A model generated the notes under the pieces. That model searched no databases and was not told the origin of the DNA. It worked only from the letters and a program-made list of their open reading frames with translations. Both the position numbers and the translations under genes were made by a program. From a virus: 33,514 nt of DNA. The stretch lies in IMG/VR virus record IMGVR_UViG_3300030061_004579, positions 1 through 33,514 of that record. One strand, 5' to 3'. Shown one piece after another: positions 19,287 to 31,802 of the stretch (the first letter of the stretch is position 1; every line of letters starts with the position of its first letter).

Positions 19287-19408
19287 CGTGTACCTAACAA
19301 TTGTATCAAGCGGGACGCGGTTAAAGTCCCGTTCGATGGTTTCAGTTTTAGTTCAAAATTTTGCTTCTAAAGAGCGCCTAATCTTCCGCGCCCCTTATAC
19401 ATCACACG
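18999..19408 (+). mobile_element. integron cassette 1
   Basis: 410 bp unit from the attI core cut to the R' core of attC A. Its edges are TTAGGTACAC (18999-19008) and GTGTACCTAA (19288-19297), perfect 10-bp complements, as expected when the R'' and R' arms pair in the excised circle. It carries one gene, on the minus strand, that fills the unit; no comparable plus-strand gene is seen. Confidence 0.85.
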
Positions 19409-19414
19409 TTAAGT
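19292..19414 (+). other. attC A
   Basis: 123 bp. R'' ACCTAAC (19292-19298), 8-bp spacer, L'' CAAGCGGG (19307-19314), L' CCCCTTA (19391-19397), R' GTTAAGT (19408-19414). The left arm TAACAATTGTATCAAGC is very close to class 1 cassette arms (TAACAATTCGTTCAAGC). L'' and L' pair as GTAT-C-AAG-C-GGG against GTATAAGGGG, leaving an unpaired C at the position seen in Vibrio and class 1 attC sites. An inner hairpin CGGGAC/GTCCCG (19311-19331) resembles that of Vibrio repeats. Polarity by these asymmetric bases is plus strand. Confidence 0.9.
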
Positions 19415-19741
19415 GTACTTTTTAGGTAATACGCTCAAATCTACTGCCCCACCAGCACCCATAAATAGTTTCCAAGCTATTCTCCCATGGGGTTTTTCTT
19501 CCGGTTCCTGCTCGTTACCATATTGATCCAAGTTAATACCACAAGCCCCGCAATGCTCTATAATAGCCTGTACTAAAGTTTCCATATCATCCGCTTCTTT
19601 AATCCACGGTATAGCTATTAAATCAAGGTCAGTTACCACACTACCATGTATCGCTAATGCGTAACCGTGCTTTCTTGCTACTTCAGCAAGTCCGTTGTAA
19701 ATAACCGCATATGCTGGGGCTTTATTTGCCTTTTTCATCAT
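19409..19741 (-). CDS. cassette 2 protein, minimal nucleotidyltransferase-like
   Basis: 110 aa from the ATG at 19741. An in-frame ATG at 19831 would start inside attC B and overlap the neighbouring gene, so the shorter form is preferred. Residues 26-46 (GYALAIHGSVVTDLDLIAIPW) carry the Pol-beta superfamily signature: G-S at 33-34 and D-x-D at 38-40. Small proteins with this core are frequent in phages and annotated as hypothetical or nucleotidyltransferase-like; substrate unknown. The stop codon overlaps the R' core GTTAAGT. Start 8 bp from the R box, as in cassette 1. Confidence 0.75.
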   Translation of the reverse strand: MMKKANKAPAYAVIYNGLAEVARKHGYALAIHGSVVTDLDLIAIPWIKEADDMETLVQAIIEHCGACGINLDQYGNEQEPEEKPHGRIAWKLFMGAGGAVDLSVLPKKYT

Positions 19742-19746
19742 CGTAC

Positions 19747-19998
19747 ACTTAACAATAGTTTCAAGCGGACTTGCTTCCTGCCCGCTGTTCAAAATCATCA
19801 CAGGTTCGTCTATATCCGTAATCTGTGTCAACTGGGCTTTTCGGCCCTATAAATCTTGGCTTATGCCACTTACTACAAACAGGTGCGCACTCGCCTTTTC
19901 GGTTCGCTACAAAATGTTGGCAGTTATCACAATGTTTTACGCTCATAATCACTTAGTCTTTTCGAGTTAGCAAGCCGCTTAAACTTTCACCGTTATAA
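19747..19998 (+). other. attC B, unusually long with gene in the loop
   Basis: 252 bp. R'' ACTTAAC (19747-19753), 8-bp spacer, L'' arm GTTTCAAGCGGACTTGC (19758-19774), L' arm GCAAGCCGCTTAAAC (19970-19984), R' GTTATAA (19992-19998). The arms pair over 15 bp with only C19762 and A19769 unpaired; C19762 is the canonical extrahelical base. The 195-nt loop (19775-19969) contains most of a 61-63 aa gene. R' departs from GTTRRRY at one base but matches the neighbouring R'' of cassette 3. Confidence 0.8.
19761..19946 (-). CDS. Cys-rich small protein encoded inside attC B
   Basis: 61 aa from the ATG at 19946 (an ATG two codons upstream is possible). It has HCDNCQHF near the start, then CAPVC, then YRRTCDDFEQR, a five-Cys pattern typical of small zinc-binding phage proteins. 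The stop TGA lies within the L'' arm of attC B and 19 bp before the next cassette gene. Its coding quality suggests it is real although it occupies what should be the non-coding attC loop. Confidence 0.6.
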   Translation of the reverse strand: MSVKHCDNCQHFVANRKGECAPVCSKWHKPRFIGPKSPVDTDYGYRRTCDDFEQRAGSKSA

Positions 19999-21804: not shown

Positions 21805-22514
21805 TAAAGCACCTTCTTAATAGTTCGAACATCAATATCAGGGAACTTCACTACCTCACTGACTCCGATAATTCGGCTCTGTAATCTTTCATGATATGGG
21901 AGTGAGCCGATATCCATGTTAGAGGTGAAGATCGTGGGCAATCGCTTAGATATACGAGCATTTACGAGTTTATCGATCTGTTCTTCTGCCCAGCTTATAT
22001 CATGGGCATGCTCTTTCTTGTGTCGCTCCCTGCCGATATCATCCAATATCAACAAGTGGACCGTCGTTAGGTTATTGAAAATAGCTACCTCTGTCATGCC
22101 TTCACTGTCGTAGCTTTCCCTGATCATAGATAGAAACTCCACGGTGTTAATTACCTGGCTTTCAGTTCGTTTAACTTCATGAAGCTCATTAGCAAGCGCA
22201 CAGGCTAACATTGTTTTACCGCTGCCCGGGTTTTCAGAGAAGAAATAAAATCCTATTCCCCTTTGTAAATTTTCACGGGTTTCAAACTCAGCGGTTACCT
22301 GTCGCTTTATCTTCTTATGCTTGGAGTCCCGGTGTTCTTCAAAATCATCGAACATAACCCCTCGGTTAAGGCTCGCCTCTGAGGATGGGTAATGCCTCAT
22401 AAGTGGCACCCTTTTTACCGTATGTTCCGGAGGAACGAACTCGGGTGCTGGCTGTGGGTTTTCCCGAGCCTCTTTAAGCATTTTCTCGATCTTTGACATT
22501 GATTCATTCGCCAT
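21804..22514 (-). CDS. DnaC/IstB-like ATPase, helicase loader
   Basis: 236 aa from the ATG at 22514; an upstream ATG at 22565 would overlap the DUF4373 gene by 62 bases. Walker A ENPGSGKT and Walker B LLILDDIGRE are intact, and the sensor region (LPTIFTSNMD, then LQSRIIG) fits DnaC-type AAA+ ATPases. It probably loads the host replicative helicase at the phage origin, together with the upstream DUF4373-like protein. The two genes overlap, a common phage pair. Confidence 0.85.
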   Translation of the reverse strand: MANESMSKIEKMLKEARENPQPAPEFVPPEHTVKRVPLMRHYPSSEASLNRGVMFDDFEEHRDSKHKKIKRQVTAEFETRENLQRGIGFYFFSENPGSGKTMLACALANELHEVKRTESQVINTVEFLSMIRESYDSEGMTEVAIFNNLTTVHLLILDDIGRERHKKEHAHDISWAEEQIDKLVNARISKRLPTIFTSNMDIGSLPYHERLQSRIIGVSEVVKFPDIDVRTIKKVL

Positions 22515-23325
22515 GTCCTGAGTACCTTGAGTTAGTTTTTTCCTGATATGTACTGGATGACCCATTGTTCTTTGATTTTGATTCTTCTTTAAGGTTGCTC
22601 AGAAAGTTGCGTTGGTACTTGTGCATCATGTTCAGATACGAGTGCCAATTCTGAACCTCCTGGCCATGTTTGTTTTTCCACCCTCTATACAGAAGTGAGT
22701 CGTATAGGTGCCGGGCATAATCTTGGGTGTATGCCTTGCTTTGGGCTACCCTCCACCACTCTTCCCATTCCGGGATATCTATATCATTGGATAGACTGTT
22801 CTTTTCCCGGGGGCTCTCTTTTTCTTCCTTTTCATCATCGATTCTGTTCTCGACAATGTCCCCTTTGGCGGGTGGTCGTTGTTTTATGTCTGCATGTAAG
22901 AGCTTTATGTTAGCATTATCGGCTATTATGTCCGCATTGGCATCTATTACCAATAATCGGGAATCTACCTCCATGTCTGAGCTTCTTCTTTTGATCGCAT
23001 CGAAGTACTTTTCCTGAATATGTTTTGATGTCAATACGTTGAACCTGCCAAATACGGACTCATTGAAGAGCCCACGTCTGACCAACCCGTTAACCACTTC
23101 ATCGACCACGCCACCGGTTACACCGACATCACTGGCAAATAGAAGCTTTGTGTCCTCATCCCATTTCATGAAAAACCCTTCGTCTGCATAGATCTGACGA
23201 AGTAACTCAACCCAGATACCAAATCCCTTAATGCCAAATTCGGCCTTTAGTAGCTTCACCCGCTTGTCACTTGCGAGATCGGTATCCAGGGTAAAATATG
23301 GCAGACCTTTACTTACTTTCGGCAT
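22504..23325 (-). CDS. DUF4373 (Lin1244-like) replication initiator-like protein
   Basis: 273 aa. The N-terminus (GLPYFTLDTDLASDKRVKLL, then GIKGFGIWVELLRQIY, ADEGFFMKWDED) is characteristic of the DUF4373/Lin1244-Lin1753 domain found in phage replication proteins. A basic linker and a C-terminal part (WEEWWRVAQSKAY) resemble DnaD/primosome-like modules. It probably binds the phage origin and works with the DnaC-like loader coded downstream. It starts 16 bases inside the preceding gene. Confidence 0.75.
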   Translation of the reverse strand: MPKVSKGLPYFTLDTDLASDKRVKLLKAEFGIKGFGIWVELLRQIYADEGFFMKWDEDTKLLFASDVGVTGGVVDEVVNGLVRRGLFNESVFGRFNVLTSKHIQEKYFDAIKRRSSDMEVDSRLLVIDANADIIADNANIKLLHADIKQRPPAKGDIVENRIDDEKEEKESPREKNSLSNDIDIPEWEEWWRVAQSKAYTQDYARHLYDSLLYRGWKNKHGQEVQNWHSYLNMMHKYQRNFLSNLKEESKSKNNGSSSTYQEKTNSRYSGHGE

Positions 23326-27145: not shown

Positions 27146-27267
27146 CCTTTCCTCCTTTCTTGGAACTCTGCAAATAAGATCGTAATCAGTATCATTGCGG
27201 CTATAAAGGTGATAATTTCCCCTCCAGTAAATACCGGTTCCGCGATTATTGCTTGTAGATATATCAT
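27142..27267 (-). CDS. 41-aa membrane peptide
   Basis: Its ATG overlaps the TGA of the DnaA-like gene (ATGA), and its own TGA overlaps the ATG of the zinc-ribbon gene. The protein has one hydrophobic segment (IITFIAAMILITILFAEF) and a basic end (QERRKG). Translationally coupled in the middle of the early operon. Confidence 0.55.
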   Translation of the reverse strand: MIYLQAIIAEPVFTGGEIITFIAAMILITILFAEFQERRKG

Positions 27268-27530
27268 AATTCTACTGCCTCCACTTTCTTTTTATACTCA
27301 CTGTCATGTGTCATTAACTCACGATGCCTTTTGATCTGGTAAAGCACCGTAGATCGCTCTTTGTCTATAAACCCAGCAATACTTGGCGGTAAGTGACCTT
27401 TAGTAAGTGATATGAATGAAATAGCTTTCCTTGCATCGGCTATAGGTTGCTTGCGAGAAGAACTAATGATATCAGAAGGCTTTACATCAAAGGCCTCACA
27501 TACTTTCCGAATAATTTTGCTGATGCTCAT
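27264..27530 (-). CDS. DnaA domain IV-like DNA-binding protein
   Basis: 88 aa. The protein aligns along its whole length with the C-terminal DNA-binding domain of DnaA: ADARKAISFI corresponds to the basic loop helix and the segment with DKERSTVLYQIKRH to the DHTTV signature helix (here D-KERSTV). There is no AAA+ domain. Stand-alone versions are common in FCB-group phages. It could bind DnaA boxes to steer initiation. It is the first gene after the structured region at 27545-28010. Confidence 0.7.
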   Translation of the reverse strand: MSISKIIRKVCEAFDVKPSDIISSSRKQPIADARKAISFISLTKGHLPPSIAGFIDKERSTVLYQIKRHRELMTHDSEYKKKVEAVEL

Positions 27531-27544
27531 CTTCTATGTGATTC

Positions 27545-27579
27545 TTTTTAAAAACCGGGGCAGGGCTTTCCCGCCCCGG
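27545..27579 (-). terminator. intrinsic terminator
   Basis: On the minus strand CCGGGGC-GGG / CCC-T-GCCCCGG forms a 10-bp GC-rich stem with a single bulge and a 4-nt loop, followed by TTTTTAAAAAG. It ends the transcript of the recombination module or of the structured RNA immediately upstream of the DnaA-like gene. Confidence 0.75.
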
Positions 27580-28012
27580 ATAATTACTGTTAAACTCACT
27601 CTACTGAGTTTATGTTAATTGCCGTCTTTCCGGCTGTCAAAAACAGCAAAGGTTTTAATTTTGCTTAGTGCGGTTATACTTCGCCAAGTAGCTTTATCCC
27701 CGATTTTCGGGGAGTTTCTTAAGAGTGAGGCATTTCGCATTTCCGCCTTTCTGCTTCTCGGATTGTTGGCAATTAGCAGACAGTTACTCCTCACGCTTAC
27801 AAGCATCGATCCTATTAGCCTGCTTACCTTTAGGATATTGGCGTTCTAACGTATTGCTATGCGTGTTTGCCTCACTCAAATTCAATAAGTCAAGTAATCC
27901 ACCGGTAAGGGTATCAGCCTATCCGGGGTAATCAGTTGGAGTCGTTTATGAAACGATCTTAGGTTAAACCGGATGGGAGCGATCAAACCCCCACCCAGTG
28001 GTTTCGGGGTAC
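27580..28012 (-). ncRNA. structured non-coding region, candidate RNA
   Basis: About 430 bp with no credible gene between the MBL gene and the terminator at 27545-27579. It holds many inverted repeats: TAAACTCA/TGAGTTTA (27591-27612), TACTT/AAGTA (27677-27690), CCCCGA/TCGGGG (27698-27712), TCGTTT/AAACGA (27942-27956), ACCCC/GGGGT (27987-28010). The strongest is GAGTGAGGCA (27723-27732) with TGCCTCACTC (27868-27877), a perfect 10-bp long-range pair enclosing 135 nt. Being followed by a terminator on the minus strand suggests an RNA in the operon direction. It might instead be a replication origin. It does not resemble tmRNA, RNase P or tRNA as far as I can see. Confidence 0.45.
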
Positions 28013-28021
28013 AAATGAAAA

Positions 28022-28726
28022 TCATTCAAGTACATACGTGGGGACCCCTGTTTGCTTCTGTATCTCGTTCACAAACTTTTCTGCATTCGAATTACGATCT
28101 GAAAGGTGTACAAGGTGTATCTCTTCAGCAGCACTCAGGTCACTCTCTGCAAAAAACTGCTGTAGTTTCTCAAAGCTGAAATGACTCCTTCGAATCCGCT
28201 CTTTCAGGAAGTAGGGATCTTTGCCCTCTTCCAGGATGTCTTCTGCATAATTACATTCAATCACAAAGTGGGTTATGCCTGAAAAATCATACTGCACGTA
28301 GGCACTATCGGAGATATACACCCCCTTGTCTTTCTTGCTAACCATGCTCTGGAACATGTACCCCAAAGGCTCTTCTGCATCGTGGATCAGGTCAAAGGCT
28401 TTCACGTAAAAACTGCCTACTTCTATCTGTGATCCGTGAAGGAGCACACTAAGCCCTTCCACCTTCTGCCCTTTTTCAAGCAACGCTTTACGAGTACCTG
28501 AACTGGCGTAAACTCTTTGCCCTCTGCGAAGCAGCTCTTCCACGGCTTTGCAATGATCCATATGTTCATGTGTGATAAAGAAGGCATCCACCTTAGTCAG
28601 GTCCACAAGTCGCGATAGATTCCGGTAACTAAGTCCGGCATCCATCATAATTGTGGTCTGTCCATCGGTTACAAGAATGGCGTTGCCGGAACTTCCAGAG
28701 GCTATGTGATTGATCTTCAATCCCAT
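28022..28726 (-). CDS. metallo-beta-lactamase-fold protein, YycJ/WalJ-like putative exonuclease
   Basis: 234 aa. It starts with the GSSGN motif (HIASGSSGNAILV) and has the metal-binding HEHMDH motif at 53-58, then FDLIHDAEEPLGYMF and a segment with YISDSAYVQYD, and finally HLSDRNSNAEKF. This pattern fits the YycJ/WalJ group, which includes 5'-3' DNA exonucleases. It follows recT by one base and probably supplies the exonuclease of a phage annealing system. Confidence 0.8.
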   Translation of the reverse strand: MGLKINHIASGSSGNAILVTDGQTTIMMDAGLSYRNLSRLVDLTKVDAFFITHEHMDHCKAVEELLRRGQRVYASSGTRKALLEKGQKVEGLSVLLHGSQIEVGSFYVKAFDLIHDAEEPLGYMFQSMVSKKDKGVYISDSAYVQYDFSGITHFVIECNYAEDILEEGKDPYFLKERIRRSHFSFEKLQQFFAESDLSAAEEIHLVHLSDRNSNAEKFVNEIQKQTGVPTYVLE

Positions 28727-29673
28727 TACTTACCGCCTCCATTTTGCCCAAAGTCGCTCATGTCAGGACCGGCATACTGCCCCTGTCCTTCCTGTGGTTC
28801 TTCCTCGTACTCGGCTTCTGCTTCCGGGATGTCTATATCCATAGATTGCTTTTCAGGCGGTGCATCTGTATGGATGTACTGGTCTGTGCTTATGCCATCA
28901 AACTCAGTACCCCTTCGTATAGTCTCATCTTGGCTTACTTTGTGCATCAGTTCTGCACTAATAGGCATGTATTTAGCACCCAAGCGGACGCACGTTTTAC
29001 AAGCCATTGCGTTAAAATCGGTATCCCATGGGCTCTTGTGGTTCCCCTTTTTAGTAGCTTCCCGATGATCTTCAACCTCTGTTTTGCTCATCACGTAAGC
29101 GAAGTCTTCACCGTTGGCAAACTTGGCATAGAAGTAGTAAGCATAAACATCTCCACGATCACCAAGCATCTTTGGTCGGTGCCGAAGCCCTCCATCCGTT
29201 CCTTCTGAGTATTCAAACTCATCATTAGTGAATACAGGTTTGGCAATAGCCTTCGTTACCTCTCCGGATCTCCTGAAAAGCTCCAGGTATCCTTTGTAGC
29301 CAATCATGAATTGAACCTCTTGCTGTTTCTCCCATTTACCATTCACATTTTTTGAATTATTGAACGGGATGAAATAGCAATGTCCTAATGTACCAGGTGC
29401 CAACCCAAGCTCCGCAGATTGCATAACTGCCCCTAAAAATGATTCAGTGGTACACTCCATTAACTTTGGATTGTTACTCACCTCTGTAAGTATGATCCTT
29501 GCTAATCGGTCAGGAGTGATGTATTTAGGCAACGCCTTCTTTATCTGAGGCATCATCTTGTCCATGATGCTTTTGGCTTTTTGAGCCGGATTTAATTGGC
29601 GCTGTTGCCTTTCTTCTACCGCAGGTTTGGAGTTCTGATTCTGTACTGCTGGTGTATTGTTTTGGGTACTCAT
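28726..29673 (-). CDS. recT: RecT single-strand annealing protein
   Basis: 315 aa. The RecT family signature is clear: ALPKYITPDRLARIILTEVS, AVMQSAELGLAPG, then CYFIPF, QFMIGYKGYLELFRRSG, AYYFYAKFANGEDF and MACKTCVRLGAKYMPIS. The N-terminal 35 residues are Gln/Asn-rich and the C-terminus is an acidic tail. It anneals complementary single strands produced by an exonuclease. It is flanked by the SbcC-like ATPase and the MBL-fold putative nuclease. Confidence 0.95.
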   Translation of the reverse strand: MSTQNNTPAVQNQNSKPAVEERQQRQLNPAQKAKSIMDKMMPQIKKALPKYITPDRLARIILTEVSNNPKLMECTTESFLGAVMQSAELGLAPGTLGHCYFIPFNNSKNVNGKWEKQQEVQFMIGYKGYLELFRRSGEVTKAIAKPVFTNDEFEYSEGTDGGLRHRPKMLGDRGDVYAYYFYAKFANGEDFAYVMSKTEVEDHREATKKGNHKSPWDTDFNAMACKTCVRLGAKYMPISAELMHKVSQDETIRRGTEFDGISTDQYIHTDAPPEKQSMDIDIPEAEAEYEEEPQEGQGQYAGPDMSDFGQNGGGK

Positions 29674-31802
29674 TATGCTACTGCTTTAGATTCTTGTTTC
29701 ACTTTCTCAACCCGCAACTCGGCATCATCAGGAGATACAATCAAGCTGATTACCTGCAAGTCTGTGTCCGGGATGTTCGTTACCGATTCACGGTTATCAA
29801 TCAGGATAGGAGCTGACTTCCCGTAGTACCGGGAAAGCGTCTTAATGATCTGCAAGCCTACCTGAATACGTTGGGCTTGATTCATTCCCTCGCTGAATGG
29901 AACGCCATTCTTACCCAGTGGATCGCAAGTCTCTGTCAATCCTCCATTGATTTGATCTTTGAACAATCTCCATTCAACACCTTCGAACAGGTCATTCACC
30001 TGATCAGTGATGTAGTTACTTCGGGCCCGTTCAAACTGCTCTATCACATACAACTGGTGGTCTACTTCGGAAAGCTCGTTACCGGCTGTTTTCTTCTCCT
30101 TTTGAAGCTCTTCAATACGTGCAAGGAGTTTCTGATTTTGTTCCTGCTGCAGTATCACCCTTTCAGCATTGGCAATGTCTTGCTCGTGCTTTTGAATGAT
30201 CTCGTCCAGTTTCTCAATCTGTTCAGCTTTTTCGGCCTCGTGACCTTCGATCTTATCCCGTAATTCTTGCTGATCCTCTTCAAGTAACTGATATGCTTTC
30301 GCCTTTTTGGGATCAGGGAGATCAGCCTTCATTTCTTCGAGCTTCTTGTTGGCCTTCTCAATCTGTTCGGTGATCTGATTGAGTGTTGCTTTCGCCTTCG
30401 CTCCGTCCGCGGTTTTCTCTTTCAGGCGCTCTTCCTCACGGTCAAGCATGCCCTCCAGGTTTTCCTTGTGCTCTTTCAACTCTTTCAGCTTGTCTGCTTT
30501 CTTGGCGTTGAAATCAGCCACATACTTCTCATGGTCTGCGTCGTGGTCGTGATCGTTTTCACTCTCTTGGGTATCCATGTACGCATTGATATCATCTTCG
30601 CGAATAGATCCGGTTCCTTCATCCATTGCAAAATTGTAGAAGTCATTCAGAACATCCCTGATGTAGTCAGGACCTAACTTTCGCTCACAAACCACACATT
30701 CTTCCGTACCAATATCTTCCTGCTTCGTCTTAGGCTCAGAAGACTTCACTTCTTCAATATCCTTGTCGGTCTGCTCAATTTCACCTTTCAGGCGCTTTAC
30801 TTCCCGCTCTACCTCCTTATAAGCGTCAACAGCTTCATTGTAGGTGGTTTGTGCGGCATCCTTCCGGTCTCGTAGCGTGGATATCTTTTCCCTTATATCG
30901 GAAAGCTTCTCTTCATTCTCCTCATTCAACCGATTCACCAACTGGCTTTTCTCAGCTTCAATCTCACTGATCTTTACCTTCCATTCAGCAATGCTTCCAC
31001 CGCTTTTAACCTGCGACTTCTTCTCTTCGATCTTTTCTTTTTTGGCTTTCAGAGTCGCTACTTCTTCCTTAGCCTCATCCACACCGGTCACTTCTTCAAT
31101 CTGTCGCTCGTTCTCGTCAATGCGAGAAGGAATGTTATCCAGTTGCTCGTTCAGATTCTTGCGCTTGGATTTCAGTATGCTCTTAGCATCCTCTTCGCTC
31201 TTACCATCCAGGATCGCTTCGTACTCATCAAGGCCGTCATTGGCTTCAATAATTTCCGACTGGTCGATCTCTCCGCACATATCTGTAAGAATAGCCCGTC
31301 GGTCAGTCCAGTGCATGGTCTCGGCAAAATAATCCGGAAGGGTAAGCATCTTGAATAGTTCTTCACTCATCACCTGCTCAACACGCTCCTGGTAGTCACT
31401 CTTCTTAACCTTCACCCCGTCGATAAAGTAATCAACGGTATGCCCGTCCATCGTTTCCTCAGCCTCCCCGCGCTTGCGGCTCCACTTCTCTTTGTACACT
31501 TTTTTGAGTGTGAAGCAGTTGAATTTCGCCTCCACTTCGTGATCCACTCCATGAAGCGGTTCACCATCTACCAGGGTCTTGATTCCGAACCGGTCGGCAC
31601 TGCTACCGCTCGTGTCCTTGTCATACAACAGGTAGGCAATAGCATCTGCTATCGTCGTCTTCCCTGATTCGTTGGCCCCGTATATGTTTACAGGTTGACC
31701 ATCAAAGTCAATATGCTTGCGCTTTATTCCTTTGAAGTTGGATAGTTTAAGCCAGTCCAGCTTAAGGTCAGTAGTAAGTTGTTTTTCATTTGTACTTTGC
31801 AT
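29673..31802 (-). CDS. SbcC/Rad50-like AAA ATPase
   Basis: 709 aa. The N-terminus (LKLSNFKGIKRKHIDFDG) leads to a Walker A GANESGKT at 42-49. A long coiled coil spans about 200-620, with a zinc-hook-like CVVC at 369-372 followed by an Asp/His-rich stretch near 416-424. The C-terminal Walker B (PILIDN, about 665-670) ends the split ATPase. This is the SMC/Rad50/SbcC plan; phage versions often process DNA ends with a nuclease. No SbcD-like gene is present; the MBL-fold protein two genes downstream may fill that role (inference). Confidence 0.85.
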   Translation of the reverse strand: MQSTNEKQLTTDLKLDWLKLSNFKGIKRKHIDFDGQPVNIYGANESGKTTIADAIAYLLYDKDTSGSSADRFGIKTLVDGEPLHGVDHEVEAKFNCFTLKKVYKEKWSRKRGEAEETMDGHTVDYFIDGVKVKKSDYQERVEQVMSEELFKMLTLPDYFAETMHWTDRRAILTDMCGEIDQSEIIEANDGLDEYEAILDGKSEEDAKSILKSKRKNLNEQLDNIPSRIDENERQIEEVTGVDEAKEEVATLKAKKEKIEEKKSQVKSGGSIAEWKVKISEIEAEKSQLVNRLNEENEEKLSDIREKISTLRDRKDAAQTTYNEAVDAYKEVEREVKRLKGEIEQTDKDIEEVKSSEPKTKQEDIGTEECVVCERKLGPDYIRDVLNDFYNFAMDEGTGSIREDDINAYMDTQESENDHDHDADHEKYVADFNAKKADKLKELKEHKENLEGMLDREEERLKEKTADGAKAKATLNQITEQIEKANKKLEEMKADLPDPKKAKAYQLLEEDQQELRDKIEGHEAEKAEQIEKLDEIIQKHEQDIANAERVILQQEQNQKLLARIEELQKEKKTAGNELSEVDHQLYVIEQFERARSNYITDQVNDLFEGVEWRLFKDQINGGLTETCDPLGKNGVPFSEGMNQAQRIQVGLQIIKTLSRYYGKSAPILIDNRESVTNIPDTDLQVISLIVSPDDAELRVEKVKQESKAVA

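Follow-up and report, generated by a model that had tools for sequence, protein, structure and literature searches.

GOLLD and ROOL are phage-associated RNAs, and put of phage HK022 is an example of the attenuator and antitermination RNAs. GOLLD, ROOL and OLE are large structured RNAs (PMC12286853), and phage-encoded tmRNAs are already known, for instance in mycobacteriophages Momo and McGee (PMC4472892, PMC9583779); an annotated Streptomyces phage tag was also among our database matches. When the locus studied here is set beside these systems, it resembles GOLLD and ROOL as a predicted large, highly structured non-coding RNA whose role is likewise not known, but it matches no Rfam family and no relation to either was found in sequence or fold. 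With phage tmRNA (RF00023, and the copy on contig C12 of the same genome), the putative RNA shares structure, similar length, the same genomic slot and a marginal similarity to the 5' domain of the C12 molecule, whereas no tRNA-like domain or T arm was seen in it, and none of its short frames ends like the C12 degradation tag. As with the attenuators and antitermination RNAs, the structured part would precede a terminator in an early operon; however, the stretch is much longer, has no alternative pairing above chance, and read-through is only hypothetical.

The window, meaning the whole stretch of 33,514 nucleotides that was analyzed, is part of contig C2 in the 3.97-Mb genome G000 and is a prophage, with portal, head maturation protease, major head protein and integrase genes. 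Its early operon runs on the minus strand through SbcC-like, RecT and MBL-fold genes to a gene-free stretch and then a DnaA domain IV-like gene. The features of this locus, in the direction of the operon, are as follows.

28022-28726, minus strand: MBL-fold (metal-dependent hydrolase) gene (phrog_392, E 7e-63; PF12706)
27953-28015, minus strand: host-type RNA element found with covariance model R1, whose core UUUGUACCCCGAAA (28015-28002) is an exact match
27585-27952, minus strand: body of the putative structured RNA, about 370 nt, with no known relative
27723-27877, minus strand: central domain closed by the 10-bp pair GAGUGAGGCA/UGCCUCACUC, then CGCAU/AUGCG and CGCC/GGCG
27747-27817, minus strand: segment colinear with the 5' domain of the C12 tmRNA (TAATAGGATCGA, CTTGTAAGCG, TGCCAACAA), suggestive only
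27591-27713, minus strand: row of local hairpins at 27713-27697, 27634-27621 and 27612-27591 (pairing probability 0.85-0.96; z -4.1 on the minus strand)
27545-27579, minus strand: intrinsic terminator CCGGGGCGGG/CCTGCCCCGG, 10 bp followed by TTTTT
27264-27530, minus strand: DnaA domain IV-like (DnaA_C) gene directly after the terminator (PF08299, E 1e-11)

A structured region free of genes had been predicted at this place, and the gap between the MBL-fold and DnaA_C genes proved to be real. Its 63-aa (minus strand) and 76-aa (plus strand) open reading frames scored like wrong frames. The exception among the ORFs scored was a 33-aa frame with a TTG start (27784-27885, minus strand), which lies inside the central domain and has gene-like codon use (0.35 bits per codon), and this counts against an RNA gene. 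None of the five ORFs of the stretch that were tested, the 33-aa frame included, had a PHROG match, and the stretch is without a convincing coding signal.

The 430-nt stretch folded far better than its shuffled versions, with z values of -4.0 (minus strand) and -3.2 (plus strand), and it ranked first on both strands among about 78 tiles of 430 nt covering the whole window, which counts for an RNA gene. When the 5' element and the terminator were left out (27584-27964), the z was -3.85 on the minus strand versus -2.24 on the plus strand, so that the minus strand is favored; it also folded better in every domain except 27880-27964 (85 nt), where the strands were about equal. The central domain had z values of -3.3 (minus) and -2.1 (plus). 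The perfect 10-bp long-range pair of the original prediction (27723-27732 with 27868-27877) dominates the ensemble with a pairing probability of 0.99 and continues as helices of 5 and 4 bp with probabilities of 0.91 and 0.84. Taken singly, this pair is only about 5% unlikely, since 97 of 2000 shuffles also contained a perfect 10-bp inverted repeat, and in a permissive test of long-range helices 34 of 150 shuffles were as good. Overall, it is likely that a structured RNA is encoded at 27545-28021 on the minus strand, that is, in the operon direction. The region is not uniform, because its first ~60 nt are a separable element common to host genes.

The statement that no known RNA family could be recognized holds for Rfam, which gave nothing at the gathering threshold and chance-level matches below it. 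Relatives of the body were not found by blastn in phages, in 97 relatives or in 394 genomes sampled from the phylum, or by a scan of IMG/VR for the closing stem, and the literature on RNAs of the host group yielded nothing useful. The structure of the body therefore rests on single-sequence statistics, which counts against an RNA gene. Of the covariation proposed as a check, the part that could be carried through concerns the 5' element, for which the result was strongly positive.

When host relatives were compared with the stretch by blastn, one recurrent short match appeared, at the 5' end. The 14-mer TTTGTACCCCGAAA has 7 copies in genome G000 itself; across the host's order, 30 of the 129 genomes contain it, with almost none for the reversed control. 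The copies sit just after the stop codons of degP, histidine kinase, YceI-like and luciferase-like genes or downstream of recD (names from our own reading of the translations), and a hairpin follows (examples are L015, L016, L017, L032, L048 and L163). The host element consists of a constant UUUGUACCCCGAAAA and a 12-bp hairpin with a UGA(U/A) loop and strong covariation. In 35 aligned copies, 88.8% of the cells of the 12-bp stem were paired, with 151 double-changed cells versus 59 in shuffles, and the stem covariation was 0.886 versus 0.267 in shuffles and at most 0.43 in slid versions. The core ACCCCGAAAA is nearly invariant by choice of search, while the UGA(U/A) loop is conserved outside the part used for searching.

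Covariance model R1 was built from host copies and one copy from the C12 prophage, and the window copy was left out. It nevertheless scored the window copy at 35.6 bits (E 4.3e-13 in the window and 5.1e-11 genome-wide), and 8 other copies in the genome exceeded 35 bits; across 296 genomes sampled from the phylum, scores above 35 bits were, among the matches listed, confined to the host's own family. The first ~60 nt of the stretch (28015-27953) thus belong to a host RNA element family that is absent from Rfam. In the window, the MBL-fold stop codon lies 6 nt ahead of the element, which has a 13-bp hairpin (27999-27987/27980-27968) with the loop UUGAUC, followed by UUUAACC in place of a U tract. 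Like intrinsic terminators and 3'-UTR-derived sRNAs, the element stands right behind a stop codon and has a strong hairpin, with a U tract at the end of most host copies; in contrast, ordinary terminators have neither its invariant 14-nt single-stranded core nor its conserved UGA(U/A) loop, and both prophage copies are without a U tract. Whatever the phage RNA turns out to be, the host element is a testable new RNA family, with a 14-nt core and a covarying hairpin after the stops of unrelated genes, and two prophages of this genome carry their own copies of it.

Several minor observations concern the same element. Three copies without a U tract (L131, L143 and L149; G002:C37, G006:C4 and G009:C206) precede a SulP-like transporter gene by about 100-130 nt, which means that a 5' leader is another possible location of the element. 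Tandem copies about 160 nt apart behind degP are frequent in the host genus. The motif also occurs without its hairpin at L037 and L130, where it directly adjoins the 3' end of a tRNA-like gene encoded on the opposite strand (GGATTCGAACCC). A scan of IMG/VR for the motif gave 67 exact matches, all in unrelated context.

The copy on contig C12 also lies within a prophage, with an integrase and a terminase nearby. The next ~600 nt after this element contain no evident protein-coding gene; they are followed by a terminator, a 70-aa ORF and a DnaA_C gene that is a relative of the one in the window (E 9e-5). The order of phage gene, element, gene-free stretch, near-identical terminator and DnaA_C gene is the same as in the window. 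The terminators are 90% identical over 31 nt (E 5e-8), and element and terminator are each homologous between the two prophages (0 of 300 shuffles each), which counts for an RNA gene. From this matching arrangement, the early operon of the phage appears to contain a conserved slot that takes a non-coding RNA. The C12 stretch holds the following gene.

L230:8761-9066 (G000:C12:41760-42067): C12 prophage tmRNA, between the host-type element and the window-like terminator

This tmRNA, with the tag GKNNILPLFGGAGVKAAA, was found by both ARAGORN and RF00023 (81.9 bits), and among the matches listed for the 129 genomes of the order it is the sole second full-length tmRNA above the family cut-off. The host tmRNA gene itself (L236, G000:C15:3-294) runs off the end of contig C15, and the assembly accordingly lacks its 3' end. 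Near 19.8 kb of the window, the two prophages also have DNA in common that is 93% identical; positions 19768-19996 and 19295-19422 are 92-93% identical to the end of contig C12, and a module common to both prophages probably broke the assembly there.

On this evidence we lean towards a gene for a structured non-coding RNA that is encoded by the phage within the prophage's early operon, with a putative transcript. The RNA would come from the minus strand, at the tail of the SbcC-RecT-MBL operon, and form the 3' part of the early transcript. It would start with or after the host-type post-stop-codon element and end at the terminator ahead of the DnaA_C gene, and its body would fill the slot that holds tmRNA in the sister prophage. 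It may be released, possibly by processing, between the 5' element and the terminator, and its fold would make it stable. The molecule could then act in trans on a target in host translation or RNA metabolism, as other phage-carried structural RNAs do. The strand bias of the fold, the terminator and the syntenic C12 tmRNA all agree with the original prediction of a large RNA read along the operon; the transcript itself we infer. If the RNA is made, it would be a new phage RNA in a slot used for tmRNA by a relative, and would link phage cargo RNAs to ribosome rescue. The strong terminator foreseen at the end of the region was found on the minus strand, with its hairpin at 27579-27555, just outside the low end of the range first assigned to the region. 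Both its strand and its place are those expected for the 3' end of a minus-strand RNA, which counts for an RNA gene; on the other side, no dedicated promoter was identified upstream, which counts against one.

The position of the terminator also supports the main rival to an RNA gene, a cis-acting leader or attenuator, since ~20-30 nt separate the end of the terminator from the following start codon in either prophage (24 nt ahead of the DnaA_C ATG in the window and about equally close to the next ORF in C12). The stretch would then have no independent life and would control read-through into the DnaA_C gene, either by pairing of CCCCGGAUAG (27928-27919) with the 5' arm of the terminator or as an antitermination RNA. 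In transcripts stopping before the 3' arm of the terminator, this alternative 10-bp pairing had a predicted probability of ~0.99; however, a duplex equally strong with the GC-rich arm was obtained in 147 of 1000 shuffles, and the antiterminator pairing was rejected as not above chance. The full terminator is in addition ~5 kcal/mol better than the alternative pairing, and C12, whose stretch encodes a tmRNA, does not have the pairing partner at the corresponding position. We consider control in cis to be unlikely.

The tmRNA in the same slot, between homologous element and terminator, raises the question of whether the body is a diverged phage tmRNA or a direct descendant of one, which would work by an unrecognized variant of the tmRNA mechanism or serve as a decoy for the trans-translation machinery. 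The 71-nt segment at 27817-27747 and the 5' domain of the C12 tmRNA have two exact matches, a 10-mer that lies equally far from the element in both and a 9-mer, and under one scoring only 4 of 1500 shuffles were as good. Under two other scorings the similarity was ordinary (261 and 603 of 1500 shuffles). Two matches to the bridging pattern of window and C12 tmRNA were found in IMG/VR, with a tmRNA at neither locus; the one that was read out is coding DNA, and a similar pair of motifs can thus stand in a coding gene. No similarity was seen between the host tmRNAs and the window body. ARAGORN reported no tmRNA in the window at default settings and only an off-the-end artefact in a relaxed run, and RF00023 gave no match in the window up to E 10. 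The tRNA-like domain that a tmRNA needs (acceptor stem, UUCRANY T loop and CCA end) was not seen in the window RNA, and none of the short frames in the body has an Ala-Ala tail like the C12 tag. Given a significance that depends on the scoring and a chance pattern in a coding gene, the body is kept as a possible descendant of a tmRNA whose tRNA-like end was lost, and the RNA is not filed as a tmRNA. We regard this reading as improbable, with the proviso that our confidences overlap, because the RNA gene that we favor would include a tmRNA-derived RNA as one form.

In a broader and quite speculative version, to which we give little weight, phages of this host group would carry an exchangeable slot for RNA genes, with a captured host element on one side and a conserved terminator on the other. 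The slot would hold a tmRNA in one phage and here a tmRNA-derived RNA without a tRNA-like end or tag, which might serve as a decoy or modulator, either for trans-translation or, by way of the captured element, for host RNAs sharing that element.

The body could instead be a decayed spacer, namely the remnant of a gene, or an RNA gene that is dead, flanked by live genes on both sides, with a leftover fold and only its ends, the element and the terminator, maintained. The lack of relatives of the body, the coding-like 33-aa frame with stops around it, and a tmRNA that is intact in the C12 slot, unlike the window slot, are all in keeping with decay. Decay should nevertheless let z drift to about 0, and on the expected strand both the middle and the ends of the stretch fold far better than shuffles, which speaks against decay; we find this account doubtful. 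An origin of phage replication whose hairpins would act as DNA, which the original prediction had named as the main alternative, is very unlikely, since, although a DnaA domain IV-like gene is adjacent and the plus strand folds well too, one-mismatch DnaA boxes are not enriched (61 in the window versus 72 expected, with 1 near-box inside the region), there are no iterons, the GC skew makes no turn, a replication-initiation gene lies elsewhere (22504-23325), and the fold is strand-biased.

The whole stretch is flanked by an imperfect 26-nt inverted repeat (73%; window 27374-27399 and 28137-28162), which is probably due to chance. Searches by way of the neighboring MBL, RecT, SbcC and DnaA_C genes found no close phage. 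In genome G048, an MBL gene 50-53% identical to that of the window occurs in a similar cassette, with no comparable gene-free stretch directly behind it. The SbcC-like gene of the window has relatives in Listeria and other Bacillota. The MBL hydrolase adjoins RecT in Bacillus phages too, as it does at window positions 28022-31802, and its gene seems to be conserved as a partner of the recombination genes.
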